Assembly (NCBI RefSeq): GCF_932294415.1
Contig: NC_065535.1
Coordinates: forward strand, 9,481,282-9,545,281
Reading direction: 5' to 3'
Source of the DNA: Quercus robur
Lineage: Eukaryota > Streptophyta > Magnoliopsida > Fagales > Fagaceae
DNA length: 64,000 bases
The notes beneath the pieces were generated by a model. It was not told where the DNA came from and ran no database searches. It saw only the letters and a program-made list of their open reading frames with translations. Below, in pieces: positions 26,030 to 64,000 of the stretch (the stretch's first letter is position 1; each line of letters opens with the position of its first letter). The position numbers were made by a program, and so were the translations under genes.

Positions 26030-26398
26030 GTTGCTCTCTTTTCCATGATAGCTTGGGCTATTTGAAAGAATACTTGAATGGAGAAATTCTTCATTTTTTG
26101 ATGATACAAACTGTTTCTCTGTTCTAATGGTTTCCTAGGTCTCCAAACCTATTAATCTTAGACTGTAGAATTTCGGAGTGAGTTTTGTTTGAATCCTTGG
26201 ATTAACAAGTTTACTTCCAAGGCTTGTAGGGCTTTGTTTCTTGGGGTTCTGGGAAACAGTGAGCACTTTGAGTGTGCAGATCTTGGTAGCTGTCTAATGG
26301 ATGACATTACGAAGAGTTGGAACAAGCTTTCTCTCTCTAATAGAGAAGGGGGCGAGTTCAAATTTTAGGCACAGCACAAGTCTCAAGAGTTCAAGATT

Positions 26399-27193: not shown

Positions 27194-27549
27194 TGCAGAT
27201 TTGAATTTTGACAGATCCGATATTCCAGATTCTACGCCTATTATTCAGCATCGCAATGATGGAGTTAATAGAGTCCAAATTTTCTGTCTCATCAATTGTG
27301 CTCCACTTCATGCTCCACCAATAAAACTTGGACAGCTAGCCTCTCTTATTAAATGAGATAACTCTGACTATAACACTCACGTTACTGACGTTAACGTTAA
27401 AATCCCTTTCCTTTTCTCTCTTTTTTTTTTTTTCTTCTGCAGCTTTTGTTCTTCTCTCTGTTTTTGGCTTTTGGTTTCTTTTTTTTCCTCTTCTCCATGT
27501 GGTTGACGTTAACAAGGAGTCCAATGAGTTTTGTCTCTTGCTGCAATTT

Positions 27550-27719
27550 TTGTTTTTGATTTGGACTCTTCACAACCTTCAAGGCTTTCAAGGGTTCTTT
27601 TTCTTCTCTTCTCTATGTGGTTGGCGTCTCATACTTGTTTTTGATTTGGACTCTTTGCAACCTTCAAGGCTTTCAAGGGTTCTTTTTCTTCTCTTCTCTA
27701 CGTGGTTGGCGCCTCATAC
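27550..27719. repeat. 85-bp tandem duplication inside the Pack-MULE
   Basis: Two copies at 27550-27634 and 27635-27719 start TTGTTTTTGATTTGGACTC and contain AAGGCTTTCAAGGGTTC. They lie between the left TIR and the captured leader, so they may be part of the captured DNA or of the element. Confidence 0.8.
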
Positions 27720-27947
27720 GTTCATCTTCATCCTCTTCGCCCCAATTACAGACACATCCTCACGTCATCTTCATCTTCATCTTCAAGTGTTTATCTGCTT
27801 CTATTGGTTTCTATATTCTTAGCTGGTTTCTCAAATGGGTTTTGCTCATTTCTCAATTTTGAGATCTGGATTCTGAAAATTTTTTCTTCAAAGGTTCTTA
27901 ATTTTTGTGTTACTTTTTCAGTTTGAGGTTCCAAGTTCCAAACTTTA

Positions 27948-28133
27948 ATGGCTCCAAGATTGGACTTTTCTAACTGGTGGGCAAAAGATACCTGCAAAGG
28001 AAACCCAGTGGTAGTCACAATGGAGAACCCAAATTTCTCAGTTGTGGAGATTGATGGTCCAGTCTCTGCCTTCAGGCCTGTAAAGAAAAGTAGAGGCAAG
28101 AATGCAAAGCAAGTGACATGGGTTTTGCTTCTC
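27948..28133 (+). pseudogene. Captured 5' fragment of a CSLC xyloglucan glucan synthase gene
   Basis: The first 62 codons, starting [15 protein letters not shown] and including [29 protein letters not shown] and VTWVLLL, match the start of plant CSLC4/CSLC12-type beta-1,4-glucan synthases, which make the xyloglucan backbone in the Golgi. The frame then runs into the right TIR (about 28134 on) and ends at 28403 as a chimeric 151-codon frame. The roughly 200 bases upstream read like the CSLC leader. None of the catalytic domain is present, so no enzyme function is expected. The parent gene lies elsewhere in the genome. Confidence 0.85.
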
Positions 28134-28798
28134 AATAGACAAAACTCATTGGACTCCTTGTTAACATCAACCACATGGAGAAGAGGAAAGAAAAGAAACC
28201 AAAAGCCGGAAACAGAGAGAAAAACAAAAGCTGCGGAAGAAAACAGAAGAGAAAAAGAAAGGGATTTTAACGTTAATGTCAGTAACGTGAGTGTTAAAGT
28301 CAAAGTTATCTCATTTAATGAGAGAGGCCAGTTGTCCAAGTTTTATTGGTGGAGCATGAAGTGGAGCACAATTGATGAGACAGAAGATTTGGACTCAAGT
28401 TAATAAGGATGAAGTCAATCCCATAAAAACGACACACACATCCAGGGATTTCGGATTGCATGGGGATGTCTTACATGAAGAACCTTCTCTGGAGGCCACG
28501 TCAGATTCATTGGGCTACCAGAATAATAATCCATCTGGGCTTTTTTCAAAAAGCCCAAACAATAACATCCCTACAGTGAAGCCAGGCCTAGTATGTGACA
28601 CTACAGCTAAATGGGTAAGAATTACTCAGCCCATTAGCTCTTATGAGGATGGTTCATGCAACGCACAGCTTGGTAAACGCCATACTGAAGCTTCCTTCTC
28701 TGAACATCCTTCAGCGAAGCATCGCACACAGAAAGATGAGGTCCCTCAGTCAACTTCTTTTCCAACGGTGGAGGCTGCCCAACAGCCCCGCAGAACAT

Positions 28799-30816
28799 AA
28801 TGAGTTGGTTATGTTGGAACGTGCGGGGGCTTGGGAACCAACGCACCGTTCATTAGCTTACATCGATATTGCGGGCGCAAGATCCTACTGTCGTGTTCTT
28901 GGCCGAGACATGGGCAGACGAAGATAGGCTGATGAAGTTACGTGATGATTTGCAGTTTGATGATTTATGGGTGGTTCCTAGAAAAATATTTAGGCTTACC
29001 ATCCTTTATGGGTAGGCGTAAGAGAGCAAGTTTGGCATACATCAAGGATCGTATTTGGTCTAAGCTCCAAGGGTGGAAAGAGAAGCTCCTCTCATAGGCT
29101 GGTAGGGAAGTTCTTCTAAAAGCAGTGGTACAAGCAATTCTGGCCTATTCTATGAGTTGCTTTAAGTTACCCGCTACACTTTGCCATGAGATAGAGATTA
29201 TGATCAGAAAATTTTGGCGGGGACAACGTGGTACTAGAAGGCGCATTCATTGGGTTAAATTGCGTACTTTATGTAAGCCAAAAGCCATTGAAGGCATGGG
29301 TTTTAGGGAGCTCCAAAAGTTTAACAACGCCATGCTGGCCAAGCAAGTTTGGCACCTACTTCAAAATCAAGACTCTCTATTTTTTTGTTTCTTTAAATCA
29401 AAATTTTTCCCTCGTGGATCAATTTTTGATGCTAAGGAAAATAAATGGTCTTTTGCTTGGAGGAGTATTTTGAAGGGAAGAGACCTCATTAGGAGTGGAC
29501 TGAAATGGAGGATTGGGAATGGCTCTAAAGTGAGAATTTTCCTAGACGCCTGGCTGCCTAGGTCTAGACAAGGTAGAGTCCTCTCCCCTGTCTTAGACAG
29601 CCATGAAAATTCCTTAGTTTCTAGTCTAATTAATCAGGTGGATAGGAGTTGGAAAGTGGCAGAGATTGATAGAATGTTTATCCTCGAAGAGGCAGCAATT
29701 ATCAAGGCTATCCCGCTTAGCTTATTTGATCGGGATGACCTTCATTTTTGGCCTTACACCCAAGATGGAGTATATACAGTGAAATCGGGTTATCGGGTTT
29801 TGATGGAACAGGAAGACACAGAGTCACAAGTTACAGCTAATCGTGGTGTTGTCTCTAATGTTTGGAAGGCTATATGGAGTATGCGGGTTCCTAATAGAGT
29901 TCAGACTCTTGTTTGGCGAGCGGGGACCAACTTGTTGCCAACAAAAGTTAATCTGGTTCAGAGGAAAGTACTTAATGAAGATGTTTGCTCAGAGTGTAAG
30001 GCACAGCCAGAGGACACGATGCATGCACTCTGGACTTGCACGATTCTAGAAGATATGTGGAAGGTTAGTTTCAGCAGGCTCATGGCAGACACGAGCACAT
30101 GCTCTAACTTCATCGAGATCCTTGAGTAGGCTTCGACAGATAAATTTACACTTGAGCTTTTTGCTATGACGGTATCCGAAGTGTGGCAGCATAGAAACAG
30201 AGCCCGTGTGGGTGAGTCCGTGGTTTCTCTTAATATGCTTCCTCCTAAGGCATCAGATGCTCTACGCGAATTCCAGCAGTTACGTCCCAACCATATTGCT
30301 ATTCCACGAACAGCCCGTGCGGTAAAATGGAAGCCTCCCAGTGCATCGTGTGTGAAGGTGAATTTCAACGGCGCGTTGTTCTCTCAAGACAGACTAGCCG
30401 GCATCGATGTAATAATCCGTAATGACCAAGGACTTGTTATGGCTGCTCTCTCACAACAGATTCCATCACCTGCTTCGATGGAGATGGTGGAAGTGGTAGC
30501 GGCTCGTCGTACTCTAATGTTTGCTGTGGAACTCGGTTTCAACAAGGTGGAAGTGGAAGGAGACTCTGAATCAGTTGTCAATGCTATTCTTGGTGACTAC
30601 ATGGACAATTCGTATATGGGTCATGTCTTGCAGGACATTAAGTTTATGTTTTCTAGCTTTTCTTTTATTTCTATTAAGCATACTCACAGAGAAGGAAATT
30701 GTGTTGCCCATAAACTTGCTAGAAGGGCCGCCAATAATCCTTTTTTTGTTTGGATGGAGTCTATTTCTTCAAATATTCTTGATGTCTATCAGCTTGATAT
30801 TTTAAGGATGCAATAA
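28799..30816 (+). pseudogene. LINE ORF2 remnant (endonuclease start, zf-RVT, RNase H)
   Basis: It starts MSWLCWNVRGLGNQ, the usual beginning of a plant L1 ORF2 endonuclease, and reaches VFLAETWADEDR. After about 60 codons the sequence jumps to the post-RT segment (LPSFMGRRKRASLAYIKDRI, then LLKAVVQAILAYSMSCFKLP), so the RT palm is deleted. The zf-RVT domain shows VWKAIWSMRVPNRVQTLVW and CSECKAQPEDTMHALWTC. The RNase H domain begins VKVNFNGALF and ends with HTHREGNCVAHKLARRA. Several stops interrupt the frame. Confidence 0.82.
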
Positions 30817-41205: not shown

Positions 41206-41813
41206 CTATAAGCCATTTAGACCACCGCCCCCAATTGTAAAAAAAAAAGAAAAAAAAAAAGAAAAAAGTAAGGCCTGCCCAAATTATTTAAGCCCCTAAT
41301 TGAAAATTGAGAACAACAAATTATTTCTAACCGTTTCTCACAAAGCAAAAAGGCTAAAATGACATTAAGTCCAATTACATCATCAAATCTTTAGCTTTCT
41401 CAGGGAAAAAAAAAATCACCACATTCAAGTATCCTTTGGATCAAATCTTTGCACCACATTTCATTAAGAAAACCCATGTTCATTACTTGAAATGTAGAGA
41501 GGGAGAGAAAGAGAGACATTGATTTTTCAATATACAAGTAACAAAATGCAGAATAAAACATAACAAAATGTAGAAAAAAAGAAAGAATAAACAAGTAAGA
41601 AAAGGCAGGAAAAAAAAAACACTCACTCTCTCCATCTTGATTCTTAAAAAAAAACACTCTTTTTAGTTGGCATACTCATCAATTGGTATTGGCAATAGAC
41701 TTGGTGTGTTCACATATCTTCATTTCAAGTTCATTTTTTGTTTTCTCTTCCTTTGCCTTTTTCGTCTTCTTCATAGTTTGGTTTGCTGTTGGGTTTTTAT
41801 TCTCATTTTTGGC

Positions 41814-42266
41814 GGACAAAATGGGCTTTTGCCATTTTCCACAAAACTAATTAGCCTTTTGCCCTTCTTCCCAAACTAAATAGGGAAATGCCCCTCTTTT
41901 AAAACTCGACTTTCTCAAAATCGAGTTAAAAAAAAAAAAAAAAAATTCTAAAGCCCTATAGTGACGTTTTTAAGGACCTATAGTGACGTTTGAAGAACCT
42001 ATAGTGACGTTTTATAACTTGATATCCACAAAATCGAGTTATAGCCAATAAAATTGCCTATAACTCGATTTTATGGATATCAAGTTATGAAACGCCACTA
42101 TAGGTCCTTAAAAACGTCACTATAGGTCCTTAAAAACGTCACTATAGGGTTTAACTCGATTTTGAAAAAGTCGAGTTTCAAAAGAGGGGCATTTCCCTAT
42201 TTAGTTTGGGAAGAAGGGCAAAAGGCTAATTAGTTTTGTGAAAAAGGGCAGAAGCCCATTTTGTCC
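41814..42266. mobile_element. MULE-type fold-back MITE with CTCGA palindromes
   Basis: Nearly the whole 453 bp is two inverted arms, starting GGACAAAATGGGC and ending GCCCATTTTGTCC. A perfect 10-bp duplication CATTTTTGGC flanks it (41804-41813 and 42267-42276). Each arm carries repeats of CCTATAGTGACGTTT and palindromes AACTCGA..AAATCGAGTT near the arm centre and tip. A long TIR with a 9-10 bp duplication indicates a MULE derivative. It is non-coding. Confidence 0.85.
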
Positions 42267-42381
42267 CATTTTTGGCTTAACTTTAGTTTAGTTGTACTCT
42301 ACTACTCTTTACTCTCTTAACTTTAGTCTCTTTTGTTTGTACTGATTTCTTTAGTATTTTCTAGAAGGCTATGGAATGGAC

Positions 42382-42455
42382 AACGTGTAGGACTAGGATG
42401 GATCAATACTTTAAGTAGGTCACCCACTTAAATTATTGATCCGTCCTACACGTTT
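42382..42455. repeat. Short hairpin (inverted repeat)
   Basis: AACGTGTAGGACTAGGATGG and its arm continuation pair with CCGTCCTACACGTTT with almost no loop. It sits just before the hAT fragment and may be a subterminal hairpin of that or another element. Confidence 0.7.
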
Positions 42456-42479
42456 GTTTGTTTGTTTTTTTTTTTTTTT

Positions 42480-42865
42480 AAGTCAAATTTAGTGGTATGG
42501 ATGGATAGTGGGCTGGTCTTAGTGGATCCAATCAAGTTCAGTCCAAGTGCATGTATTGCTTTCAAAATATTACTAACTATACTTGTTACAATTGCTTCCA
42601 CAAAAAGAAGTTTTTCAAAATTAAAATTAATAAAATCCTATTTAAAATTAACTATGTTACAAGAAAAATTAAGTGGATTAGCCATATTATCAATTGAAAA
42701 TGAAATGTTAGCGAAACTTGAATGCAAAAATTTAATTAGTAATTTTGCCTCTCAAAAAGCAAGAAAAATAAATTTTAATTGAAAAAAATATATGAATTTA
42801 TAATTAAATATAATAAAAGGCCCCATTTAAAGCTTTTGCCTAAAGCCCCCAAAGTCGTTGAGCCG
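42480..42865 (+). mobile_element. hAT transposase C-terminal fragment
   Basis: A plus-strand frame ending at 42782 reads LLTILVTIASTKRSFSKLKL, then SGLAILSIENEMLAKLE and LISNFASQKARKINF. This is the hAT-family dimerisation region of zf-MYM/TTF-type plant transposases. Only the last ~90 codons remain. The following non-coding end (CCCAAAGTCGTTGAGCCGG) looks like the 3' end of such elements. No 5' end or matching TIR was found. Confidence 0.8.
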
Positions 42866-43181
42866 GCCTGTCATATTTCCTTCTGTTTTAGCTCAAACAT
42901 TCTGCCTCTGCCTTTAAGGCTTGCTTGTATGGCAAATTGTCCACCTGTTTCTTAGTTTTTTCTATATGAATAAAATGGCAGATTATAAAAAAAAAAAAAA
43001 AAAACTTAGTCCGCAAGGGGAAACCAATATCATACATAATAAGGTAATAAAACAAAAGAAAAGTTTGTTTGGAAGGGAGAAACTGAAATCCTAATGGCGC
43101 AGATTTTCGTTGCTAAATAACTGTAATATGCTAAGTATTTCGTTAGTTGTCCTGTTACGAAACAATTTGTAATAATAGCAT

Positions 43182-43305
43182 CTCGAGTTTCTTAAACTCG
43201 AGATTCAATTTAAAAATCGAGCTTTTAAGACTCGTTTTTGTTGTTTTTCAGTTGCTGACATGGCGAAAGTTTCCACTTGGATAGCGAGTTTATAAAACTC
43301 GCTTT
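43182..43305. repeat. Left palindrome array of the MULE
   Basis: Three short palindromes of 21-26 bases occur in order: ATCTCGAG..CTCGAGAT at 43182, AAATCGAG..GACTCG at about 43215 and AGCGAGTTTATAAAACTCGC at about 43283. They resemble the seven units at the right end and probably include transposase-binding sites. That role is an inference. Confidence 0.7.
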
Positions 43306-44777
43306 CGCTTTAACGCTTTTTTCCCTTCCCACTTAAAACAATCTACAGAGACCCGTTCAAAATCTCTCAATCTCAGACACCGCTCTCTCAAACTCTCTCA
43401 AACTCTTCCCCTCACTGTGAAAATTTCAAAATCAACTCACTCTCAGACACTCCGCTCTGTCAAACTCGCCGTGCCGAAGGTGGTTCTCCCATTGAGACTC
43501 AGCCACCGAAACTGAGTTCTGCTCCCATTGATAGTGAGGCACTCAAAGTCAGTACTGCTCCCATTGAACCACCGTGCGCCTAAGGTACTCTCTCTTTCTC
43601 GAACTCCAATCTTAGGTTTTGGAATTTCATGATGTTTCCTATTTCGTTTTTCAATTTCGGATCTTTCTGGGTTTTGGTGGTTCATGTCATTTCAGTGAAT
43701 GCATGTATATTATTCTGTTTGGTTGTTTGGGAAATTAAATTTAGCAAAACTGATTGAGCATTTGATTGGGTTTCATTAGTGTAAAAAGTGTTAATATCTG
43801 GATTACATTGATATTTAATCTAGTTTGTTGGGGTTTCATTTGATTTGTTTGTGGGTTTTGTTTGATTTGTTTGTGGGTTTTGTTTGATTTGTTTGTGTAT
43901 CTTGTTTCATGGTATTTTCACTGATTTGTTTTGGGTTTGTTTTAATTTTCTGATTGTATTTTCGTTTGTGGGTTTGTAAAGCAAATTATGGGTTTGATGA
44001 AATGGTTCTATGAACGGTGTATGAGTTGTGAAGTAATAAGTGAGAATATTCATTTGAAAAAAATGAGAACTTACACCTGAAAAACAATGGAAGGAAATGG
44101 AGTCAACAAAACAATACATCTAAGAATTTTTTTTTATTGGGTTAAAAATACTCAAATCAAGCCAAGGAACGAAAGATAAAAAAATATTAGTTCAAGAAGA
44201 GGATTATACCTGTGTTTGGAGTGTTTGGACCAAGAGCGATTCTGTGTTTTGCATCTCAGGATGAACCGGAACCTATGGATCTTATATAACATTGATCCAC
44301 AAATCTGTTTTCTGCAATTACATTTTTATTTTTAATTTATATTTACTTATCTGGGGGAAGGGAGGGAAAAAAAGAAGAAGAGGAGGAGGATTATAAAAAA
44401 GTCTTTTTCAATTCTTAACCACCCAAAGGTTAGGAACCTCATGTGTAACTAAACATTAAGAAGTTGATGCATTGGGGTGATTGTGCAGAGGTAACACTAA
44501 GCTGAAATTAGAAGTTAGAAGTTAGAAGTTAGCCGTCCACACTTACTGCACCACCAACAACATAAAATTTAGAAGTCAAACACCATCAAAGAAATCTTAA
44601 AAAGTGGGAAACAGAGTCACACCTGCAGACTTTTGAAAATAAAGTTTGATAACTACAGATCCAATGCTACAAAAACAAAAGCAGAAAGTTATAAATCTTA
44701 AATATGTATGATAAGATTGCACAAAAAAAAAAATAGTAGACAATATAATTAGCCCAATAAACTCAAAGAGATGGTAC

Positions 44778-45974
44778 CAGAAGAGAATGTAGAGCTGTTT
44801 CAGCTTGATTTCCAAGGAAATACTGCAGAGCCATAGCAGCATGCTCCTGCAATAGGAAAATGCTAAAATAAGTAGGAAGTTTTAACCACCTGAACTAGGA
44901 GAAAGATAAAATGACCAGCAAAGGCTATTACCGTGATGCGTCTAAATACATGATAAACTGAAAAACCTCTAGAATGTATGTAGTTGCCTCCCTGTTAAAT
45001 ACAGTAGAAATCAAATACATTGCAGCTAAGCACCCTCAATAATAAAGGAAAAAGATAATAGTAAAACAATAAGGCTCAATAATTATAAAAAATAAAAATA
45101 AAAAAAGTACAAAGACAACATAAACATAAGCATTTACAATATGAAAGCCAGGGAAAAACTAAAAGCTTCAAAATAGAAGACAAAATAGATCACAATATGT
45201 AAAAAGATAAAGATTTTGCAAAATAAAGGGGAGGACAAAAGATATCCACACTTCCACTGCCATGAAGACTAGTAGTCAGTTTACCGTTTAGCCCACAAAT
45301 CTAACAATCTTCAAGTAAAATCTCATATGGCACTTAAAGGAGAAATCAGAATACTCACATAAAATGTAATCAATCTTAACTTGTGATCCGGATATTATCT
45401 CAGAGATGAGGAATGGAACAATGAATCATACGGGTCTCCAAGTAAACAGAGAATAGCATGATATGATATTTAGTTAAAAAATTAAGATATCTGGATATAC
45501 AAGATTACCTCATCTGGAGAGAAGAAAGCAACTGAGTCAGGGTCAATAGAACCAGCTGGATGCAGAGATACAACTGCTCTGAAGACAGATGGAAACAGCA
45601 ACTCAATTACAGCAATCTTCTCTACAGCAACCGCACTCAACGATCCTGCTCTTAGTTTATTTGAATTGTGATAATTATGTTCTTTAGATGTTTCAATGGA
45701 AGCCTCATTAGTTGAAGAGGGCAGCAAAGAAGCTCTTTTCAACCAGTCCAATCGCTCATAAGTGAAAATTTTCAAATTTGGCACTTCTTTTTCCAAATGC
45801 ATTAGAACATCTGATAGTGTCTTAAAACCGCTAAGCTCTTCTTGATGATTTTCCATCGGTACTTGGGGACCACAAAGTTTCTTTGAAGCTGATTTGGCAT
45901 CCTGATCATGTAATCCATCATCAAGGTGAGGAAAAAATTGTCTTTTCTGATCAGTGAAGGCCTTGAGAGCTAAC
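44778..45974 (-). pseudogene. MED27: MED27 gene fragment (three exons) inside the MULE
   Basis: MED27 is a tail-region subunit of the Mediator complex in the nucleus. Three exons, 45974-45509, 44991-44932 and 44846-44778, are in phase with good GT/AG sites. They encode LALKAFTDQKRQFFPHLDDG, LEKEVPNLKIFTYERLDWLK, VVSLHPAGSIDPDSVAFFSP, YIHSRGFSVYHVFRRIT and EHAAMALQYFLGNQAETAL, clearly the middle of plant MED27. The usual N-terminal part (before RLALKAF) and the C-terminal zinc-binding part (CSKCGRLL type) were not found within 7 kb either side. The exons lie between MURA and the left TIR, so they look captured or trapped by the MULE. No stop lies within the exons, so the fragment is recent or was protected. 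Confidence 0.8.
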
Positions 45975-46210
45975 CTGCAAATATTCAGAAGCATAACTAA
46001 TCAGTAACCAGTTGGTGCATGGCCATTGAAGAACATGCAGTGGCAATTTATTAAGACTAGAAGGGGTATGTGCTAAGTAATATATTAATAATAACAATAT
46101 ATTGATCAGTTTAACACTTAAAACAATTGCTCCTTTAGTATGAGCATGGCATGACTAAAAATATAAATTCCTACATCCTCAAGAAAATATGTAAGAGCAG
46201 ATCAATGTAG

Positions 46211-46241
46211 TTTTTTTTTTTTTTTTTTTTGATAAGTAGCA
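46211..46241 (-). mobile_element. Mini poly(T)-GATAAG insertion with 12-bp duplication
   Basis: About 20 T then GATAAGTAGCA is bounded by AGATCAATGTAG at 46199-46210 and 46242-46253. The GATAAGT body matches the 33.5 kb insertion. It lies between MURA and the MED27 fragment within the MULE. Confidence 0.8.
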
Positions 46242-46286
46242 AGATCAATGTAGTTGTATCTTGTATGTAAACCTAATGCAATAGCA

Positions 46287-48557
46287 TTATGAACCAAGAA
46301 GTCTCCAGGCAGAAGCCCCATTCCCCAATTGATTAACTGATTCAGACCAAACGCAGCATTGGTAGAATGCGGCCTTGTCGTATGGTCTTTCTTTCACGGT
46401 TTTTTTTTTCTTTTTTTTTTGGCCAGCAGGAGTAGAGCATGCACTACAGCCAAGTTTGTTCCAAGTGAACTCAACCAACGCGGCAATAGGAAGGCCCCGT
46501 GCACCTTTCAATACACCATTGAAGCACTCTGATATATTGGTTGTCATTGCCCCAAAACGTCTCCCACCATCATGTGACTGGGTCCACATATCCACTGACT
46601 CGCCCATTAGGTATGTGTATGGAAGATAATCTTGATTCTTTTCCTTGCCATCCTTCCCCGTCAACTTCTTCTTATTTCTAATGGCCTCAATTTCCGCCTG
46701 CTTAATGGTCTCCATTATGGAGGTAAATTTCACTGCCTGACTAGCATATCCAGCTTTCAACGCCGCTAACTTCAGAGTCGAGTTCTGAAAATGTGTGTTA
46801 AAGTTGCTAGCAACATGTCGAAGGCAATATCTATGAAATACCAGTGCTCTTCCATCATCCCTTCTAGGCCAGTTTGCAATGGCGTTTTTGATACCGAGAT
46901 GTCGGTCAGAAATTATGCAAATGCCTTCGTTAGGTATCACGCGGCCAATCGCATCTCTGAGACATTGTAAAAACCACCTCCAACTAGACCCTGACTCAGA
47001 ATCCACAATAGCAAAGGCAAGAGGGAATACCTTGTTGTTAGCGTCAGTTGCCATTGCAACCAAAAACTTTCCCTGATATTTACCATACAGATGAGTCCCA
47101 TCAATACTGATAACCGGCTTGCAATATTTGAATCCATCAATGCTTGGACCGAAAGACCAAAACACATAATTCAAAAATACTGTGTCATCTTCACCGGTGG
47201 ATGTGGTATGATAGAACACCTGGGTAGTCGGATCCTGATCAATATATGCCATTAGCAACTTTTGCAACCTTTGATAAGACTCTTCCCAATTCCCAAACAT
47301 CTTCCCAATCGCCTTTTGTTTCGCATCCCACACCTTGTAGTAAGAAGGCTTTTGTCCCTCATATTTCAACTCTATCATAGATCTGAGATGCTTAATTGGG
47401 GTAGTGTGATCCTCACATAACTTCTTAAGGATGTCATCTGCAATAAATTTACAACTCATCATTCTACCATCATTTCGCACCCCAGTCCGTATACACGTGT
47501 GAGGACCCTTGTACACGGTGACTATCCATAGATTGTGGAACTTGGGCTTCTTGACTACGCAGACATACCATGTGCATGACTCATCAACGCATTTCGCACA
47601 AAGTTTTGTCGTGGTTGACCTACTGATAAAAAAATGTTTGTTTTCCTTGAGGGCACACTTTGTTAATACGCGTTGCACCTCCATTTTATTGGCAAAAGTC
47701 AAGCCTTTGCACAAATTCATCCCCTCTCTCCAACTAGACACAAATGGTGTCTCAATATGTGAAGGATCAACAAAATTTTCCCAAGTATTTTCAGAAAATG
47801 ACAAGGCAGGTGGTGAGTATACAGGGATTGTGTCCGTAATGTTTTGGACACTAAGAACATTGTATGCATCAGGTTGACTACCGTCCAATGTCTCATCGTC
47901 ATCAATGTCCCTCTCAAAGTCCCTAAAGTCCCCTTGTTCAATCTTGTCTTCAATCTCATCTCTATCGCCAAAATCTTCACCATTAATGACAATATTTTCA
48001 TCAACATAGTCATCATCATCATCCTCATCCTCGTCCTCATCATCATAATCATCATCATTCTCATCCTCATCCTCATCCTCATCATCATCATCATCGGCAT
48101 GAACATCAGCATGCTCTACATGTGTAAAATACTGGTATTGAGCATCTGGAACTGTAACTTGTAAACTTGTTTGTGTTTGTTGGATTTCCTCAATACCAAC
48201 TTCTGCACGTGGCTCCAACTGTATGTACAACTCAATGTTAGTTACTTCAGGTATTCTCTCCAACTTGTCAAACATGATCTTCACATGTTTGTCTGCTTCT
48301 ATCGCCATGTACTTGTAATTAATCCGGTGCTTCAGGATTTCATTTGGCATGCGATAAGTAATGTGTATGTTGTGCACAGCAGGGTTCTCACACAACTCTT
48401 CCATAACCATCATCTTCAATTCATCAAGGGTCTTCAACCTACGATCAATTTGGGTATAATAGGTCTTTATACCCGGCCCTTCAAATGGCAATCCCTTGTT
48501 CGCATTGGCATTCTTCAACGAACCACCGTGGTATATGATTATATCAATTTCAGGCAT
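46287..48557 (-). CDS. MURA transposase of a MULE, C-terminally damaged
   Basis: A MuDR-family transposase that cuts and pastes its element by DDE chemistry in the nucleus. The 756-codon frame starts MPEIDIIIYHGGSLKN. A PB1-like region covers residues 1-125, then a highly acidic Asp/Glu tract covers about 150-230. The MuDR DNA-binding region has KGLTFANKMEVQRVL and CAKCVDESCTWYVCV. The catalytic core has ISIDGTHLYGKY (D), ICIISDRHLGIKNA (D) and NISECFNGVLKGARGLP (E). At about residue 705, after ALVEFTWNKL, the expected VAYF..HDR continuation and the SWIM zinc finger are missing. The frame instead runs through a Lys-coded A-rich stretch into unrelated sequence. The N-terminal 700 codons are open, so decay is recent. 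Confidence 0.88.
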   Translation of the reverse strand: MPEIDIIIYHGGSLKNANANKGLPFEGPGIKTYYTQIDRRLKTLDELKMMVMEELCENPAVHNIHITYRMPNEILKHRINYKYMAIEADKHVKIMFDKLERIPEVTNIELYIQLEPRAEVGIEEIQQTQTSLQVTVPDAQYQYFTHVEHADVHADDDDDEDEDEDENDDDYDDEDEDEDDDDDYVDENIVINGEDFGDRDEIEDKIEQGDFRDFERDIDDDETLDGSQPDAYNVLSVQNITDTIPVYSPPALSFSENTWENFVDPSHIETPFVSSWREGMNLCKGLTFANKMEVQRVLTKCALKENKHFFISRSTTTKLCAKCVDESCTWYVCVVKKPKFHNLWIVTVYKGPHTCIRTGVRNDGRMMSCKFIADDILKKLCEDHTTPIKHLRSMIELKYEGQKPSYYKVWDAKQKAIGKMFGNWEESYQRLQKLLMAYIDQDPTTQVFYHTTSTGEDDTVFLNYVFWSFGPSIDGFKYCKPVISIDGTHLYGKYQGKFLVAMATDANNKVFPLAFAIVDSESGSSWRWFLQCLRDAIGRVIPNEGICIISDRHLGIKNAIANWPRRDDGRALVFHRYCLRHVASNFNTHFQNSTLKLAALKAGYASQAVKFTSIMETIKQAEIEAIRNKKKLTGKDGKEKNQDYLPYTYLMGESVDMWTQSHDGGRRFGAMTTNISECFNGVLKGARGLPIAALVEFTWNKLGCSACSTPAGQKKKKKKTVKERPYDKAAFYQCCVWSESVNQLGNGASAWRLLGS

Positions 48558-49544
48558 TGTGAACCTGTTACAGTCAAGTTACCATGTTAGTTAACAAACA
48601 TTTTCAAGTTCCCTGATCTAAAAGAAACTTTTTAGTAGGTCTTTAACTTTCTAATAAAAAGATGCGGCCGAGAAACTTTTGTAAGTTGCTTTTCATCATA
48701 CATACAAACTGAACATTTTTTCGTGCCATTTGTTAGTGTAGTACGACTATATTTAACAATTGAACATATACAAATCCATCTATCCTTCCTATATACAAGA
48801 GGCTAATTACAGCAACATGGTATGAGAGGTAAACACATGTAAAGCAAAAGATAATTGCAAACGCAATTTTTTTTAACACATACAAAATTGCAAAAGATAA
48901 TGGGGGACTAAATAATTGCAAAAGATATATCATATAATTTTGTAACACAAACACAGCCACATTTGTTGGTAACACATACAAACCCCCCCCCCCCCCCCAA
49001 ACAAAAAAGAATCGAGACCTTTTCAGTATTTGCAACACATTTCATGCTTAAGACATTAGTATCAACTGAAATCCCAATGAACTATTTTATTAGATTCCAA
49101 GACTACCTTTAATAACCAGATCAGAGTGGACCTTTTAGCCTAATGAACACACGATACACACTCATTACAAATTAAATCTGCTTCAACATTGTGACTGTTC
49201 TCAACAAAAGCCCCTTCAAAAATGAATAAGAGAACCTCTGCTCCATAATATTTTGTTCACACATACACATCTATATTAACCTGTACTAATCTATACTAAC
49301 CTATACACATCTATACACATCTAACTTATATTAACCTGTACTAACCTATACACATCTACTGCTTGGCTCAAAAGGTAAATCAAGCTACTTGACATTGGCT
49401 TGGAAAAAGGAACCATTCAAATAACCTGTTGCTTTGGCTCAAAAGCTAAACAATCCAATCCTGAAAAAATTTCTACTTGCCTAGATGTTTTATGTCTTGA
49501 AAGTTCAAGCTAGTTGAGCTCTCAATAAGAAATTGTTCAATAAC

Positions 49545-49687
49545 TCATTTTTCTTGTTCTTCTTTTCCTATTTTTCTTGATCGTTGTACTTTTGTTTCCT
49601 GATTTGTGCCCCCATAGTACATCCCTAATGTACTCGGTTTGGCACTTTTTCTATTATTAATAATATTCTTACGTTCCTTATAAAAAA
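49545..49687 (+). mobile_element. LINE/SINE 3' tail with perfect 17-bp duplication
   Basis: About 143 bases ending ACGTTCCTTATAAAAAAAG lie between perfect copies of AGAAATTGTTCAATAAC (49528-49544 and 49688-49704). The interior ATGTACTCGGTTTGGCAC and TTATTAATAATATTC are typical of a LINE 3' UTR. This is the plus-strand and longest member of the truncated-tail set. It inserted into the MULE. Confidence 0.85.
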
Positions 49688-50039
49688 AGAAATTGTTCAA
49701 TAACGTTCTTCAAACAAAACCAATTTAACCCACCTACTAGGCTCGTTTCCAATACTATCTTTGTAGGTATAGCAGTCAACTACAAATAATAATACATGCC
49801 CTCTCAATGATGAATAATCAAATGTATAGTAAATATGCTTTTGATTGGTAGCATTATGTATGCGTATACAAGTTATTTTTTTTATTAATTGAAGTTTTAT
49901 TACTTAATGAAGCACATAATTGAAACAAAAAGTGCACGAACCTTTTCTCTTGCTTGGGGTTGAGTCTGGCTGGTTTATTATTTTTTTGGTTTGTCGGGAT
50001 GCCTTCTTCTTTAGTTGTATTTGATATGGTTTAAAAGGA

Positions 50040-50560
50040 GTCTATTGATGTTTGATGACAGAAAATCCTTGCTTAATGATGATGACATGCCTACATCAAT
50101 TACCTTAAATAAATTAAATGGTTTAAATTATTTAGTTTGGACACACGCTATGATTTGAAGCAACATAAGCGATATTGAGAGGAATATATGATTACTACAT
50201 TACTGTCTGCCTTAGATTCTGATCTACATGGTTTTAAAGAGCAGATTCTTTCTAGTGAAACCCTCACTTCAGCTGCCAATGTTAATTCTCATTATTGTGC
50301 TCATGCTTAGGCCAAGGTTCTATTGAGACAGCCATAGTCTTTTGCTTTAGTTTCTAGCATTGGAGGTTGTAATAGCTTCTAGTGGTAATGGTTGTAATGG
50401 TGGATGTGGTGACAACAAGTGATCATTTGGTGGTATGAATTGTACTAAACGTTATTGTTGGGTGAAATACAACAAGACAGAGTACGTGCATCAGGTTATA
50501 GATGGTATTAAACAATCACAGTTTACTTCTGTTCTAGTTGGTAGATTTGATCAAGAAGAA
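50040..50560 (+). mobile_element. Degraded Ty1/Copia-like gag fragment
   Basis: Scattered plus-strand frames recall a UBN2-type Copia gag region (KLNGLNYLVWTHAM) and a Gly/Asn-rich stretch before a CCHC-like area (WVKYNKTEYVHQVID). It is broken in many places and has no LTR or pol nearby. It is a fossil inside the MULE and looks old. Confidence 0.45.
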
Positions 50561-51160
50561 TTAATGCAGGGAAACACCTCAAAAAGAATAAAGTCAATGA
50601 GAACAGAATTTTTTTTATTTCACCAAAATGGCTAATGCAAAAACATATTTTTATCAAGATGGTTAAGATTAATCACATGAATTAGTAATAAATCAAAGAA
50701 AATATAACAAATAATATATAGCTCAAATGACATGCAAGCCAATAAAAACATGGAATTGAAATCAACAACAAAAAGATACTACAAGAAGAACATCTTATAT
50801 TAGGAAAAAACATGGAGTCATTGGAAAACCCATAAAGTCATTGGGAAGTTCTCTTAGTGGCAAAACCCATACACAACTAATACCCAACTACAATAACAAT
50901 CAAATCAAAAAACCCATACCTGAAATATGAAATTCTTGAGAGGGAAGAGCAGTGAGAGAGGCAATGTGGTGAGTGAGAGTGAGAGGTGTGAGAGTTAGTG
51001 AGGCTGAGTGTATGGGTGAGAGTTGAGCCTCTATTTTTGGGTGAGAGTTTGAAGATACTGAGTGTGGACTGAATAATCTATTCCCAAGAACACGTTCTGA
51101 AAACTACTGCTATCTGTTTTTGAGTGTGGACGGAACGGAGTAGTAAAATAGTTCCACCAG

Positions 51161-51476
51161 AACTCGAGTCTTATAGACTCGAGTTCTGTTCAAAGTTAAG
51201 TACATTGTTTGGATAAGTAAATCTCAAGTCTTATAGACTCGGTTTGCTCCAGGAAAAACTCGAGTCTATAAGACTCGAGATCCGTTGAAATTATTATATT
51301 CCTATAATTAAATCTCGAGTCTTATAGACTCGGTTTGTGCCAAGAAAAACTCGAGTCTTAAAGACTCGAGATCCGCGTGGCAATTTTTGCCACCTCAGCA
51401 GTGCAGAACTAATGGAAAGCGATTTTATAAGACTCGGTTTTTAAGTTGAATCTCGAGTTTCAAAAACTCGAGATGT
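51161..51476. repeat. Right palindrome array of the MULE (seven units)
   Basis: Seven units of 22-26 bases occur near 51161, 51224, 51258, 51311, 51348, 51420 and 51451. Full units read AACTCGAGTCTATAAGACTC plus GAG or close variants. Some have one arm changed from CTCGAG to CTCGGT. Spacing alternates near 35 and 55-65 bases. The cluster lies in the TIR and subterminal region upstream of the transposase leader, where transposase-binding sites and the promoter are expected. Confidence 0.8.
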
Positions 51477-52319
51477 TAGTTTTCTAAATTGTTTGAAAAC
51501 GTGCCTAACTAACTAATTTGAATGGTTGAAGAAATCTGATATGCACAATACCTCTAATGGCGCATGCTTGATGGGATGTTTTTTGGAAGCTATGTGAGCT
51601 ATATAAAGAGGGGGAAAATGTGAAGGAAGCAATATACATTGGTGTTTTTTTATTCTCTTATGTTCTATTGTCCCCTTTGGTCCCCATTATTCCATTCTTA
51701 TAATGGGTATGATTTGGTTTTTGCTATAGAGACACCTTTGGTTTGTTGGACAAATTATGGCTTTCTACCATAGGATTTGAATGGGTTCATACTGTTTCTT
51801 ACATTGGCCCAGAGGGTTGCTTTGAGTTATAGACTTATAGTATACTTAGCTCTATTACTTAGTTGGGAAATTATTTTGAAGAAAGCAACGCTTGGTTTTA
51901 GCTTCAAAGAGAAATATACTTTATCAAAAAGTCAGAGAATAGGTGAATGCATTTAATGTAATTAGTCAATGTCCTATGCGATGCATGGATTCTTTATACT
52001 TTTATTTTGAAATAATTTCTAACTATTCTTTTTGGCCCTATAACAATCATCTTATGTTCAATTGTATTATACATATCATTAAGAGGAAGAAAATAAAAAG
52101 AACCAAAATTATTATGAATATACATAATTAAGAATATGAGTATATCTATGTAGCCTAAATGAATTCACAATTATTTAATTATTTTTACTAATTAAAGTGT
52201 ACAATATCACAATAGGAAGAGGAAAGAGCGAATTGACGTGGCACTTAATAATAAAAGTCTTATCAGGAAGATTGTAGAGAGAGTCTTTCAAAATGTGTGT
52301 CCTATTTTATGATGCTAGC

Positions 52320-53162
52320 TGTGGGGTCAGAGAACTTATGACCCGGCCCACTTTCCACTAGGGCCTAGGGCCCGTGCCGAGGAGAGTAGTTGCAGAGAAC
52401 AAGTGGTGAAAGACCAAATAGCCTAGAGACGCAATCGAGGATGACCCTGTTCTCGGCATCCCAAGACTTCAAAGGGAAGAGCGACATCTCGTCGAAGGCT
52501 ACCTCCAACATGCTCCCAGAAGAAGAGGTGAGTAGAATGAGATCAACATGGGGGTACGGAGTGGGGGTGGTTCAAGGTAAATACGTTACCTCCGCATTGA
52601 ATGCGCCCGCAAACATCCCAGTCATATTAATAAGAAAAGACGCCTGAACAGTGTGGTTTCGGTTAGTGCAACTAACAAAAAGCAGGGGGAGGCGGCTGAT
52701 GGGACATGTATTTGAATAGGAACCTGCCTGATAAACAGGTGGAGGGTCAGGATCAACCGAGAAGGGCTATATAATGTAAAGACTTGTGCGCCAAAAGGGA
52801 GGGGGCTTCCAGACCATGGAGTCCTAAAAAAGGGAGAAGAATAAGGACATGAAGCTCCTTGGACGAGGTCGAAGGATCGGTGTCACTCATGACGTACCAG
52901 AATAGATTATTATTGAACACGTCAGGTTCATCCTTGTGCAAATCGCTATGGAAAAGGCCAAGAACCAGAGCCTCCCAGACCGTATCGAGGAGAAAGACTC
53001 CTCGAGCGAACATGGTTTAATTTTGTATGAACACCATAACCAACCACCGTTCGGTGACCAAGGCCTAGCCTTTCAAACTCACGCTCTACAAATTATATTG
53101 TTTGGGCCCTTAACGTGCGAACCTAATATCATTTTGGGGTCGTTACAAATTGAGTCCTTACA
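52320..53162. mobile_element. Solo LTR with perfect 5-bp duplication
   Basis: An 843-bp unit starts TGTGGGGTCAGAG and ends TTGAGTCCTTACA, flanked by CTAGC at 52315-52319 and 53163-53167. It has no internal coding region and no partner LTR, so it is a solo LTR. The open frames inside are LTR sequence and not genes. The family is not assigned. Confidence 0.85.
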
Positions 53163-53457
53163 CTAGCCAATATTTTGGAGAATGTGGGAAAAAATTAATG
53201 TGGATGGGTCATGCTTGGGTCATAATATGTAAAATAATAAGTGGGATTGGGCTTTTCATAAAGTTTGGACTGATTTTAATTTAATTTTAAACTACAGTCG
53301 ATTTTAAATAATAGTAAAAAAAAAAAAGAAGTTAATTTGATTTTTTGGATAATAGTAAAAAAAAAATTAATGAAATGAGGTTAAAAATGCTAAATGAAAT
53401 ATTAGAGTGTCATATGGTAGGAGCTTATGCACTTTTGGTTTTACATAAGGTCTTTGC

Positions 53458-53493
<36 letters not shown>

Positions 53494-56400
53494 TGATGAT
53501 AGCTTGTATTAATGGACAACTGAGAGGAACTAAAAGGGAAAAGTCATGCACGCCCGATAGACTTTAGTTAATCTCTTGGTTGATGTTTTCCAAGCCAACA
53601 TGAGATTGCTAGTAAGTTTGCCACCCATGAAAAATCACTCCCTTACTTGTCATATTGTCTCTCCCTTTGTTGCAAACTAAATTTTGTCCATGGCCTTGGG
53701 CCATGGGTTAGAAAGATTAAATGTTAACTTGGTGGGCTAGATACCATTTTTCATTGATGGACTTGTGATATGGGATGTGTTGTTTGTGGCTAGCTATAAG
53801 TATTGGGCTTAAAGCCTTAATGTATAATTTGCCAAAAAAAATAGGTCACAATACAATATCTTCATTGCATTTTATTCCATTCATTCCCTTTATCAACTCT
53901 CAAGCATAATGTAATTTATACCAAAACAATAAATTTTTTTATTGGTTAAAGCTTATAAAAAGCAAATTTATATCTAAAACAAATAAACAAATTATTTAAC
54001 TTAAAAGAAAGGGGTGAAATACAAAAATTACACATGAAATTTGGGCTAATACCAAATACTAGTAAGAGTTTTCAAAAACATCCAATTTGCCTCCTAAGAA
54101 CAAATAATGGGAAAAATGGGCATTTGCAAAGAATTTACAAATTATGCAGTAAAATGCCCATATTTTGAAATTATTTAGCAAAATGCCCCTGTTTTTGAAA
54201 CTCGATTTTAACAAAATTGAGTTATAAGTGAAACTCGACATTAGCAATGTCGAGTTCTATGCATATTTTGCCACTTAAATTTGTTTGAAAATTTAAGTCG
54301 AACTCGACATTGCTATTGTCGAGTTCCACTTAAAAATACATACAGAACTCGATTTTGTTAAAATTAAGTTTAAAAAACAAGAGTATTTTGCTAAATAGTT
54401 TTAAAACAGATGCATTTTACTCCATAATTAAAAAAAAAAAAATTTCCCCACAAACAACACTTAACATTGTTTAAAAGTTTTATATTTCTCGCTCATTCCT
54501 TCCAATCGCTTATATTTATTATTATTCTTCCTCCTCTCTTTTATTTTTTGGTGAGGAACCCTAAGAAGTAAGGAAAATTATACGGTGTTAAGTGATGATT
54601 ACGCTTAGGGTATAAATTAGATATTTTTAAAATTGTTTATAGGAAAATTCAAAAAATTGTAGTAGTAGCTGGCATTGGTCTAAACAATTTTGTATCTTAA
54701 AGTTAAACCCAACCAAAAAAAAAAAAAAAATCCATCACACACGAGAGTCGCAGTGGCCATTTTATTGACCGTTGCAACAAATTATGTTTGGGCGCGTATT
54801 TGTCGCGCTATAATTCCCACCCTCCCCCCCCCAAAAAAAGGCCCTAGCAGCTCAACGTGTCAAAAAAAAAAAATCCTCTCCTCCTTCGTCCAAGGCAAAC
54901 CCTTCTTCCCTCTCCCTCTCCCACCACCACGGCACCACCGCAGCTCATCCACCGGAAACGACAAGTGGTTCGAATCGCCGATGCGGACTTCAAAGGACGA
55001 GCTTCTCTGCACTGTAATCGCTTCCATTGCTACTACTTGAGAGTGAGTAGTCGTGGCTCACTCTTTTGGAATTTCATTTGTAAAATTGGATGCTTTTTTT
55101 AGATTCTACTAGGTTTTTAAAGTTTTTTTCGACTGTGTAGGTTTTATTTATTTTTGGTTATCTTTTACCTTTCTGAACCACTTCGGATACATTAGCTTGA
55201 ACTATGTGACAATGGATTGGTTTGCTAATAAATATTTTACAATATTAAACTGAGGCCTTTCAAATTGTAAACCTGACTGATAAATCGATTATTTAACCAA
55301 TACCTTGAAACCCTATTCACAATTATGCTTGGGAGACTAGAATAAGAAGAACCGAATGAATGTGCTGAAGTGAAGTAGAAAGATTCAACATGAGATCAAG
55401 AGTGATGTCACTAGAACATATTCCTATTTGGTGAGAGGGTATTAAATCTAGGAAGCATGGACATGGGAATGTGTAGTGGTATGACATGTAGATATGAGCA
55501 ATTTCTGAAAGATTATACCATGACCCGGCGGGTATGACACGGAATACGACATGAGTATAGCACCCTAAATGAAGTGTTCGTGCTGAGAGTTACAAAATCT
55601 CGTGTTAACCTATTGAGGCAGAGGATATTAAGTTAGAAGAAGTAGACAAGGAAGATGGTGAGGATTACAAAATCTTACGTTGACAATAATGATCCTTACA
55701 TACTCTAGGATTGCATTTCTTTGTTTACGTTAAGCATAGACGTTATTATTTGTCATTCTAGTGCTTTTTGGTATTTGCCGCCTTTGGATTTATTTTGACT
55801 AAACCATGTATTGCATTTTGATCATGGCTATCAAATATCACATTTGTAATATTTTACAAAGAAAGAGGATTATATAATATGTTGTGTTTAATGTTTATCA
55901 GATTAATTGGTTGCTTGATTATCATATTTTTTGTCAATAATTATTTTCATATCTACTAAATTATTTTTGAAAAACATGCCATTTGCTTCAATTAGACTCA
56001 TGCTTGCACTCTATGCCTAGGCTCTAGTAGGCCTTTGTCCATATGTGCGCCTGGTGCTCTCTCCAACATATAGTTTAATTATAATTCATGTGTTTCTTTC
56101 TAATTGAGCATGCCAATGTTGGGGTGTGAGGTTATGGGTCAGAGCACTTGAAATTTTAGAGCCTCTATGGCACATGATGTGAGGCTGACTTTCTTAAATC
56201 ATAAGACCAATTTGACCTATGCACTGCACTAACTTTTGGGAATGTAAGGCTAACCAAACCCCACAGCCTCCTTATCAACTCATATCTCACAAATATCCAA
56301 AACTACGAGAGGATCTCACTCTTAACACCTTCACTCCCCCCCCCGCCACCCTATTTTTGTTTCTTCTTACCATGATGAAGGTGAGATGAATTTTATCACA

Positions 56401-61259: not shown

Positions 61260-64000
61260 CTCAATCAAGGGCAAGAAAGTAATTGCCCGTTCTAGGGCTT
61301 ACACTGATATGAATGTAAGTGCCAATATAAAAGATAGGAAGACCTCAGTGAGCTATTCCAAGAGTGAGGAGTCTTTAACCACAAAGAACCTAACTGATAT
61401 CCTAAATGGAAAGTTCCAGTTCAAGAGTCAACCCGAGGGCCAAGTGGGCAATTCTATTAGAAGGAAAAGTGGTGGAAATTCTGTTGATTGTGATAGAGGA
61501 AATCCGAGCAAATTCGACACAAGTCCTGGGGTGGTTCAATCACAGGCTATGGAAAGCTTGGAAATGGATATTCCCCTTAACCCCACTAAGCATGAAGACG
61601 GGCTGCCTGCCACACACAGACTCGACTAGGGGTTTGATGGAAAACCCATGGTGGAGCCATCTGTTCGACATCTCGGAACCAGAGGAAGCGAGAAGGATTG
61701 TTTGGGAAACCATTCCACAAATCCACCCAGCCTCGATGTTGTGTGAAGTGGAGCCAGAGCTGAGTCTCACGATGAGAAGAATGTTGGAGAATCAGCCCAT
61801 TGCAACTGCCTTCATGGGCAACAGACATGCGTTAAAGATCCTTCAAGTGTTTCAACCAATTTTGGTGTTCAATCTCCACGTCATCGCCAGAGAGGAGGTA
61901 GGGGTGCTGGAGCACTGGCTAACGATGATGCCGGGGTTGGAGTAGACAATAGAGTTGATGAGGAAGACCGGATGGAATTTAATGGAGGAAGCGAGACTGC
62001 TTTCACCCTTCAATGAGTGCCCCACCCCTGATCATTGTTTAGTCATGAATATCATAGCATGGAATTGCAGGGGCACTCTAAAGCCCAACTTCCAAAATTT
62101 TGAGAATTGGTCCAGAATCACGACCTAGCCATTCTTATTATCATGGAGACCCAAGTAGGTGGAGAGAGAGCTAAAGAAATCTTGGATAGGCTGCCTTTTG
62201 ATAGGGCTATCCATACTGACACCATTGGCTACACGGGTGGCTTATAGGTTTTGTGGAACTCCGGTAGAGTCGTGGTTTCTCCTCTGGCTACAACAAAGCA
62301 AGAAATTCACATCACAGTCAAGGTGAGACCCTTAAACTTTTATTTTCTAGTTTCTGCTGTGTATGCCAGCCCTAGATTCAATGAAAGATGGGTTTTATGG
62401 AATAACCTTAAAAATGTAGCTAAACTTCATAATAAACTTTGGATTATTGTTGGTGATTTTAACGAAGTTCTTGCAGATGGGGAAAAATTTGGGGGTAGGT
62501 CTGTTAATATAAACCCCTCACTTTTGTTTAAGGAGTGCCTTGATGCTTGTAATATGGTGGACCTGGGCTTCTCGGAGCCTAGTACACATGGTCAAATTTA
62601 AGGGAAGTTAGCAGACTGATATTGGAAAGATTGGATAGGTTCTTCGTCAATCCGGGCTAGTGCACCATGTATCTAAATGCTAGAGTTGTCCACCTGACCA
62701 GAGTTCACTCGGATCATTGCTCTGTACTACTTGATTTTGACCACTGAGATTTCACGAGACTCGAGAGGCCTTTCAAATTCCAAAGTTTCTGGCTCTCTGA
62801 TCTATCTTTTCCAAAAACCATCTCTGATGCCTAGGCTCAATCTACTCACCTTGCTGAGGCAGTGGAGAAGTTTACCAAGAATGCTACCGATTGGAACCTT
62901 AACCATTTCGGGAATATCTTTGTTAAGAAAAGGAGGCTAATGGCCAGATTAAATGGCTGTCAAAAAGCTCTAGCAGCGAGACCTTCCCCTATCCTTGTTG
63001 ATTTGGAAAAGAGCCTCCAATGCGATCTCAATGAGGTCTTGAACCAGGAGCAGGAGCAGGAGCTTTGGGCTCTCAAGTCTAGAGTTAATTGGATGCTGTT
63101 AGGAGATCGCAATATTCTTCTCTCCTTGTCTTGACGCTAGTTAGGAGAAGAAGGAACAGAATTACTTGCATGAAGAATAATGTGGGCGATTGGATCCAAG
63201 AAGAGACTTAGATCATGGATTTTGTCCGAAAAGGGTTTGAAGACTTGTATACAAGTGGTCACCTTATGGCAAATTGGCATCTCTTGCCCAAATCCCCTTG
63301 GCAAGCATCCTTATCTGATACCGAGAGGGATTGCCTGTATGATTCGGTGTCCACAGAGGAGGTTAAAAAAGCCTTGTGGTCCATCAAAGCTTTCAAAGCT
63401 CTAGGACCGGACGGCCTCCATGCCGGGTTTTTTCAACGTTTTTGGTTGACTGTTGGTGACTCAGTGACGAAGGAAATAAAAACTATTTTCCACGAGAAGA
63501 GAATTCTGGAGTACCTAAATGAAACAAATATTACTCTCGGGAAATATCGCCCGATTGGGCTTTGTAATACAGTATATAAAATGGTCACAAAGATCATTGT
63601 AGTAAGGCTCAGATCGCTCCTCGACAAGCTTGTCTCTCCAGTGCAAACAACATTCGTCCCGGGTAGAAAGGGAGTTGACAACGCGATTATTGTCCAGGAA
63701 ATCATCCTCACAATTGGTAGGAAAAAAGGGAATGTGGGCAACATGGCGATAAAGGTGGATTTGGAATAAGCCTATGACAAGCTTGAATGGAGCTTCATTC
63801 GTGAAACGCTTCTAAAGGCTAATATTCATTGAGATCCTGTGCATCTCATCATGAGCTGCGTTTCAACCACGTCTACTTCTGTACTGTTTAATGGAGGGAA
63901 ACTGGAGGCCTTTTACCCCTCTCGTGGGATCCGCCAAGGGGACCTGTTGTCTCCCTACATCTTCATCTTGTGCATGGAAGTCCTGGGTCAACTTATTGAA
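61260..64000 (+). mobile_element. L1-type LINE, broken, running off the window end
   Basis: An ORF1 C-terminal part (about 61309-62016; KNLTDILNGKFQFKSQ, later FGVQSPRHRQRGGRGAG) is followed by ORF2 starting MNIIAWNCRGTLKP at 62045. The endonuclease shows METQVGGERAKEILDRL, WIIVGDFNEVLADGEKFGG and VHSDHCSVLLDFDH. The reverse transcriptase shows ALGPDGLHAGFFQRFW, YRPIGLCNTVYKMVTKII, FVPGRKGVDNAIIVQEI and GIRQGDLLSPYIFILCMEVL. Multiple stops and frame changes occur, so it is dead. It is a different copy from the 26-31 kb LINE, because this copy keeps the RT that the other lacks. The YADD box would lie beyond base 64000. Confidence 0.88.

Follow-up and report, generated by a model that had tools for sequence, protein, structure and literature searches.

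A 64,000-nucleotide stretch of Quercus robur DNA (the window, at the full length analysed) contains one copy each of a Mutator-like element (MULE) and of two fold-back miniature inverted-repeat transposable elements of MULE type (MITE1 and MITE2), all of which carry a 21-base-pair (bp) palindrome, CTCGA-N11-TCGAG, at their ends. Base composition and, as judged by eye, the larger open frames of the window are consistent with plant nuclear DNA, and the sequence of 41.5-55.0 kilobases was read through and its palindromes measured. The spacing of this motif is fixed, its arms have changed more slowly than the sequence around them, and it is present in two lineages of terminal inverted repeats (TIRs). 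The palindrome may be a subterminal site of two-fold symmetry to which a protein encoded by a MULE binds, common to the MULE and the MULE-type MITEs, a reading to which a probability of roughly 55% is given. A symmetric protein-binding site predicts fixed arms and spacing at the ends of two lineages, slowly changing arms and a mostly fast-changing centre, and it is favoured for that reason.

Distribution of the palindrome across two lineages of element ends

With spacers of 4 to 16 allowed, CTCGA and TCGAG arms match at ten places in the window, all within the three elements, where 0.08 would be expected, which bears out the preliminary description of such palindromes, with mostly AT-rich centres, in every one of the elements. 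The variable spacer of 6-12 proposed there is replaced by a fixed one, as the spacer is 11 in nine of the ten matches, all nine being inside the elements, and the tenth (43197-43221, spacer 15) consists of the right arm of one palindrome and an adjacent half-site. The shorter core CGA-N11-TCG occurs 13 times inside the elements and nowhere outside them, with counts at every other spacer from 3 to 30 of 0-3 inside and 0-5 outside. The same figures of 13 inside and 0 outside were obtained for ACTCGA/TCGAGT at spacer 11 with up to two mismatches, a pair of arms which at other spacers from 0 to 24 never exceeds five matches inside or three outside. Across 300 dinucleotide shuffles of the window, CTCGA-N11-TCGAG had a mean of 0.003 (maximum 1) and CGA-N11-TCG a mean of 1.25 (maximum 6), and the best CGA/TCG count, taken over all spacers of 0-30, never exceeded 9; when four ends or elements were shuffled locally, 2000 times each, the observed CTCGA count was not matched once in any of the four.

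A survey of 5-mer arms at spacers of 0-30 (rows with at least three occurrences) placed CTCGA at spacer 11 at the top of the window, above TA repeats, and after removal of the three elements the six leading rows had three occurrences each, none of them like it. Among 3-mer arms, TCG at spacer 13, which is the same palindromes read one base outward, outranks CGA at spacer 11; the survey score is unsigned, and the top 3-mer row, TTT at spacer 0, is rarer than expected. A chance origin of the palindromes is ruled out by the expected counts, the shuffles and the arm and spacer survey. Scans reported neither a known RNA family nor a transfer RNA identity for them. The MULE form of the palindrome, with 19 fixed letters, was found in no stretch of the viral contigs and in two stretches of 257 gigabases of genome contigs (Myroides and Planctomycetota records), which are not taken as meaningful because about 1.9 would be expected by chance (both strands, even base use).

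With decayed copies included, 18 sites were recognised (13 with an intact core, four from a mismatch scan and one, at 51221, picked by eye): four in MITE1, four in MITE2 and ten in the MULE, of which three belong to its left end and seven to its right, such that the ten or so MULE palindromes of the preliminary description, in the same division, hold once decayed sites are counted (Table 1). When up to three mismatches are allowed, further sites turn up beyond the elements and inside the MULE away from its ends (e.g. 43603 and 48230); these have few paired positions and were excluded. For the nine MULE sites with intact cores, the distance to the nearer end is 45-146 bp on the left and 46-335 bp on the right, and three pairs of sites occupy matched distances in the left and right TIRs (45/46, 79/80 and 146/148). 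The surplus of MULE sites is at the right end, 5' of the minus-strand transposase frame, though about 2.6 kilobases (kb) away from it.

MITE1 is a short element with inverted repeats of 117 bp at 96% identity by TIR alignment and a target site duplication (TSD) within the 9-11 bp of MULE-type MITEs. For MITE2, the best TSD candidate agrees at seven of nine letters (ACAAATAAT/ACAAACAAC). The TIRs of the two align with each other at 75-77% identity over 70-73 columns (E 5e-9 to 9e-8), and 16 of their 20 outermost bases are identical, an alignment by which MITE1 and MITE2 are diverged relatives. Because both fold-back MITEs are related, the TIR lineages number two rather than three, and a set of three unrelated families with a common motif is ruled out. 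The MULE, with TIRs of about 76% identity across 145 columns and hence of the long-TIR kind, gave no alignment of its ends with either MITE at E 0.01 apart from A-runs. Thus, from the earlier picture of three distinct transposons with different ends, the separation of the MULE from the MITEs stands and that of MITE1 from MITE2 does not. Tandem units of 29-30 bp in the outer inverted repeats of both MITEs (41819-41883 and 54139-54200) may also indicate kinship. Tandem repeats of about 22 bp, in inverted arrangement, sit between the palindromes of MITE1 and constitute a second candidate subterminal motif.

These relationships bear on a rival history, in which a MULE-type ancestor, or an exchange of TIR pieces, seeded both lineages and tandem duplication then multiplied copies that have no function now. 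The alignment of MITE1 with MITE2 runs through the stretch containing the outer palindrome, as such a history would have it, and modules at the right MULE end have been duplicated (81% identity over 124 columns; sites MU_R6/MU_R5 and MU_R4/MU_R3 are 91 bp apart), so that many of the MULE sites are copies of one another. The restriction of MULE-to-MITE alignment to A-runs argues against it, as does the slower change of the arms described below, and inheritance or exchange without present function is considered possible but distinctly less probable than a binding site.

Sequence variation, pairing and folding of the sites

The consensus of the 18 sites is AACTCGAGTTTnTnAAACTCGAGTT, with A1, A7, A15, T19, G21 and T25 invariant. 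At the CG letters (columns 5, 6, 20 and 21), 6 of 72 differ by a count made by eye, each being C-to-T or G-to-A, although the changes in M1_b and M1_b' may be one shared event; such changes would fit decay of methylated CpG, as expected. Taking as stem 22 of the 25 columns of each site and as remainder the central three bases, five comparisons of homologous copies gave differing columns of 14/217 in stems, 77/410 in surroundings and 11/29 in the central bases, or 12/151, 55/341 and 6/20 without the two tandem-copy comparisons, it being noted that the five overlap in sequence and that both tandem-copy comparisons extend beyond clear homology. Stems had fewer changes than surroundings in all five comparisons, and the central bases were more changed than the stems in four. 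MITE1 alone, with 0/44 changes in stems vs 9/163 in surroundings, is too small to stand by itself, and since all rate and covariation figures derive from related copies they are supportive and not decisive.

The preliminary description had also suggested that the palindromes form small hairpins, and a function of this kind, with stem-loops in transcripts or single-stranded DNA feeding silencing or controlling expression and conserved for their pairing, has several results on its side. Modelled as an 11-bp stem closed by a loop of three bases, the sites are paired in 88.9% of 198 cells (78.0 in shuffles), 19 cells are changed on both sides vs 7.2 in shuffles, and the covariation score is 0.305 vs 0.135, the last two values being reached in none of 500 shuffles; sliding the partner by one base lowers pairing to 44-47%. 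These counts are inflated by kinship of the sequences, and the sites were partly selected for palindromy. Ten of the 18 sites, folded as single-stranded DNA, gave -6.3 to -15.1 kcal/mol, with a 3-nucleotide loop in eight; against 200 shuffles each, nine were equalled by none or one and the tenth (41897-41933) by four.

Folding and paired changes thus uphold part of the hairpin suggestion, but pairing alone requires neither identical arm letters nor identical spacing across unrelated ends, and leaves both unexplained. Further, pairs changed on both sides stand out less from shuffles than cells do (6 vs 4.0 in shuffles, reached in 24 of 500; further pair types, 10 vs 7.7, reached in 27 of 500), an exchange of whole palindromes would also give paired changes, and broken pairs amount to 22 of the 198 cells, with two or three per site in 6 of the 18 sites by eye. 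Stems of 9-14 bp are, in addition, too short for Dicer processing. Conservation for hairpin function is therefore regarded as improbable.

A purely mutational origin was also weighed, in which template switching at short inverted repeats recopies one arm from the other and keeps the palindromes near-perfect without selection. It would account for inner pairs which vary between families yet stay mostly complementary (45 of 52 pairs adjoining the arms in 13 sites, vs 49 of 201 in control pairs at other spacers), and for the TAT loop of some copies being the reverse complement of the ATA loop of others. It leaves unexplained why arm sequence and spacing agree between two lineages and why the sites are restricted to element ends, and is judged very unlikely. 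MU_L3 and MU_R3, which occupy matched places, differ at one base of the loop and at three pairs that seem to be compensated, for which replacement of the whole unit is an equally good explanation because the arms of MU_R3 equal those of MU_R5. The idea that pairing is prevented at the three central bases was dropped, as 2 of 13 sites pair there, a figure for which no expectation was computed.

Coding content of the MULE and neighbouring features

An open frame of 763 amino acids in the MULE contains a MULE catalytic domain (PF10551, 62 bits against a cut-off of 27.6) and a MuDR DNA-binding domain (PF03108, 30.1 bits against a cut-off of 25), together with a weak IS256-type match far under the cut-off of that family. 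Ten further frames gave only three Pfam matches, all at chance level (E 0.08 to 2.3) and none to a transposase or VANC domain. No relatives of the transposase were found in viral contigs, and its comparison with solved structures returned a single match at chance level (E 0.13). The 172-amino-acid frame has neither a Pfam nor an NCBIfam match and is possibly a captured gene fragment. More widely, the MULE has frames that lack a Pfam match in the region 44200-46400, which lies between its left end and its transposase and possibly represents an intron-containing gene captured from the host.

Outside the elements, the stretch 52300-53140 resembles by eye a separate repeat, perhaps a small element of long-terminal-repeat type, and includes, near 53001, a CTCGAG that lies outside any palindrome of the CTCGA-N11-TCGAG kind. 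Open frames at 26369-30816 and 63212-63769 resemble, by eye only, the reverse transcriptase and RNase H parts of long interspersed nuclear elements.

Table 1. Elements, open frames and palindrome sites, with positions in the window
Feature	Positions	Strand	Location	Sequence or remark
MITE1, fold-back, MULE-type, 453 bp	41814-42266	.		TIR alignment and perfect 10-bp TSD
TSD of MITE1	41804-41813 and 42267-42276			CATTTTTGGC; perfect, 10 bp
Tandem repeat, about 22 bp, 2.7 copies	41955-42013	+	MITE1	CCTATAGTGACGTTTT...; inverted counterpart 42090-42148
M1_a	41903-41927		MITE1	AACTCGACTTT CTC AAAATCGAGTT
M1_b	42016-42040		MITE1	decayed, left arm CTTGA
M1_b'	42062-42086		MITE1	decayed, partner of M1_b
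M1_a'	42153-42177		MITE1	partner of M1_a
MULE, about 8.4 kb	43139-51516	.		TIR alignment; transposase domains
MU_L1	43180-43204		MULE left	ATCTCGAGTTT CTT AAACTCGAGAT
MU_L2	43214-43238		MULE left	imperfect, CGA-N11-TCG core
MU_L3	43281-43305		MULE left	AGCGAGTTT ATA AAACTCGCT
Open frame, 172 amino acids	45482-46000	-	MULE	
Open frame, 763 amino acids	46287-48578	-	MULE	PF03108 and PF10551
MU_R7	51161-51185		MULE right	14-bp stem with 3-nucleotide loop; lowest energy among the ten sites folded
MU_R6	51221-51245		MULE right	decayed; chosen by eye, not by scan; in alignment
MU_R5	51257-51281		MULE right	
MU_R4	51312-51336		MULE right	core intact, three broken pairs
MU_R3	51348-51372		MULE right	
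MU_R2	51416-51440		MULE right	imperfect
MU_R1	51450-51474		MULE right	
MITE2, fold-back, diverged MITE1 relative	54109-54447	.		TIR alignment
M2_a	54199-54223		MITE2	decayed, right arm TTGAG
M2_b	54232-54256		MITE2	AACTCGACATT AGC AATGTCGAGTT
M2_b'	54301-54325		MITE2	partner of M2_b
M2_a'	54346-54370		MITE2	decayed

A candidate binding site and its counterparts in known systems

In the favoured reading of a protein-binding site, the half-site would be approximately AACTCGA, and two half-sites 11 bp apart would place CTCGA...TCGAG over 21 bp, about two helical turns, for a protein that would bind as a dimer. One candidate for this protein is the MuDR-type transposase and the other an additional, VANC-like protein with an anti-silencing role; binding might then affect mobility or silencing. 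The MULE would have amplified the site through local duplication in its subterminal regions, mainly on the 5' side of the transposase frame, and the MULE-type MITE lineage would carry the same site through dependence on that protein or a near relative of it. The MULE-like 10-bp TSD of MITE1 and the MuDR-type DNA-binding domain in the MULE frame are counted in favour of a MULE protein. The earlier proposal of a common protein-recognition motif is supported in this indirect manner, through fixed arms and spacing, intact cores only near the ends and slower arms. One transposase may mobilise all three elements, as was also proposed there, although this MULE copy gave no SWIM finger match and the ends of the MULE and the MITEs show no alignment past the palindrome.

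A number of points weigh against a binding site for a MULE protein. The evidence base is the sequence of a single copy per element, and since some MULE sites were copied from others, the 18 sites stand for fewer independent events, conservatively for two lineages. In the local shuffles, the count of the short core was reached once in 2000 for MITE1 and once in 2000 for the MULE left end (0 in the other two). The centre of the MITE2 sites is unchanged (0/6), and complementarity of inner base pairs that differ between families is not required by a fixed-sequence dimer site. For the MULE, where a TSD of 8-11 bp would be typical, the best 10-bp candidate among many offsets tried agrees at 7 of 10 letters and none is convincing, such that the outer ends, taken from TIR alignment, could be off by several bases. 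No VANC domain (DUF1985/DUF287) was matched by Pfam in the 763-amino-acid frame and ten shorter frames, where introns could hide exons, nor was a SWIM finger matched by Pfam in the same frames. As transposase-like similarity of the long frame also presumably stops near 46430-46470, judged by eye against known transposases, this MULE copy is probably non-autonomous.

A broader version, in which one trans-acting protein of a single MULE family controls unrelated TIR families via the palindromic code CTCGA-N11-TCGAG, is put forward tentatively, as an unlikely though possible extension. A dimer would then read the outer arms, the inner stem would be complementary yet free in sequence, and the extra sites 5' of the transposase gene would belong to an anti-silencing or transposase network.

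Docking sites for transposon proteins are already known in kind, and CTCGA-N11-TCGAG was not matched to any described motif; no published description of it was found in a search that covered only a minority of subscription journals, so that it may have been described elsewhere. To our knowledge, there are few worked cases of one MULE protein serving many differently-ended non-autonomous elements, or of short motifs enabling escape from silencing, and the MURA motif of maize TIRs is not known to consist of arrayed 21-bp palindromes. A palindrome of fixed spacing in two TIR lineages offers an easily scored motif for plant genomes, for comparison with methylation and small RNA, and for gel shift. 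If true genome-wide, it would be a symmetric counterpart of the tandem VANC motifs.

Among known systems, the VANC motifs of Arabidopsis VANDAL MULEs are closest in logic. These too are short motifs repeated in the non-coding parts of MULEs with local expansion, but as tandem repeats of 8-9-bp motifs (YAGTATTAY; AGTTGTCC/AGTTGTAC) (PMC5735166, PMC10398659). VANC6 motifs are also present in AT9TSD1, a family unrelated to VANDAL, in an account whose main text does not contain the word palindrome (Hosaka et al. 2017, PMC5735166). Parallels on the transposase side are the MURA motif and the subterminal repeats of Muta1. MURA, a MuDR-type transposase as in the present MULE, binds a motif within the TIRs of maize Mu, which differs in that about 32 bp are conserved (PMC3310237). 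The Aedes MULEs Muta1 and Muta5 are alike in having a long TIR, many short subterminal repeats and non-autonomous relatives, and Muta1, whose TIR has a subterminal repeat of 12 bp present nine times, is likewise termed a fold-back element (type 2); they differ in that the repeats, of 12 or 15 bp, are direct and in tandem, Muta1 having in addition a terminal palindrome of 10 bp, and in a transposase with a predicted FLYWCH finger (PMC5225508). Plant MULEs with multiple long TIRs share the tandem duplication of TIR modules at one end, but duplicate whole TIRs, whereas the present MULE has duplicated only a shorter, palindrome-bearing module (PMC3310237). Finally, since MURA induces hypomethylation in the TIRs of non-autonomous copies (PMC10398659), transposase and anti-silencing roles for the protein that would bind the palindrome need not be exclusive.

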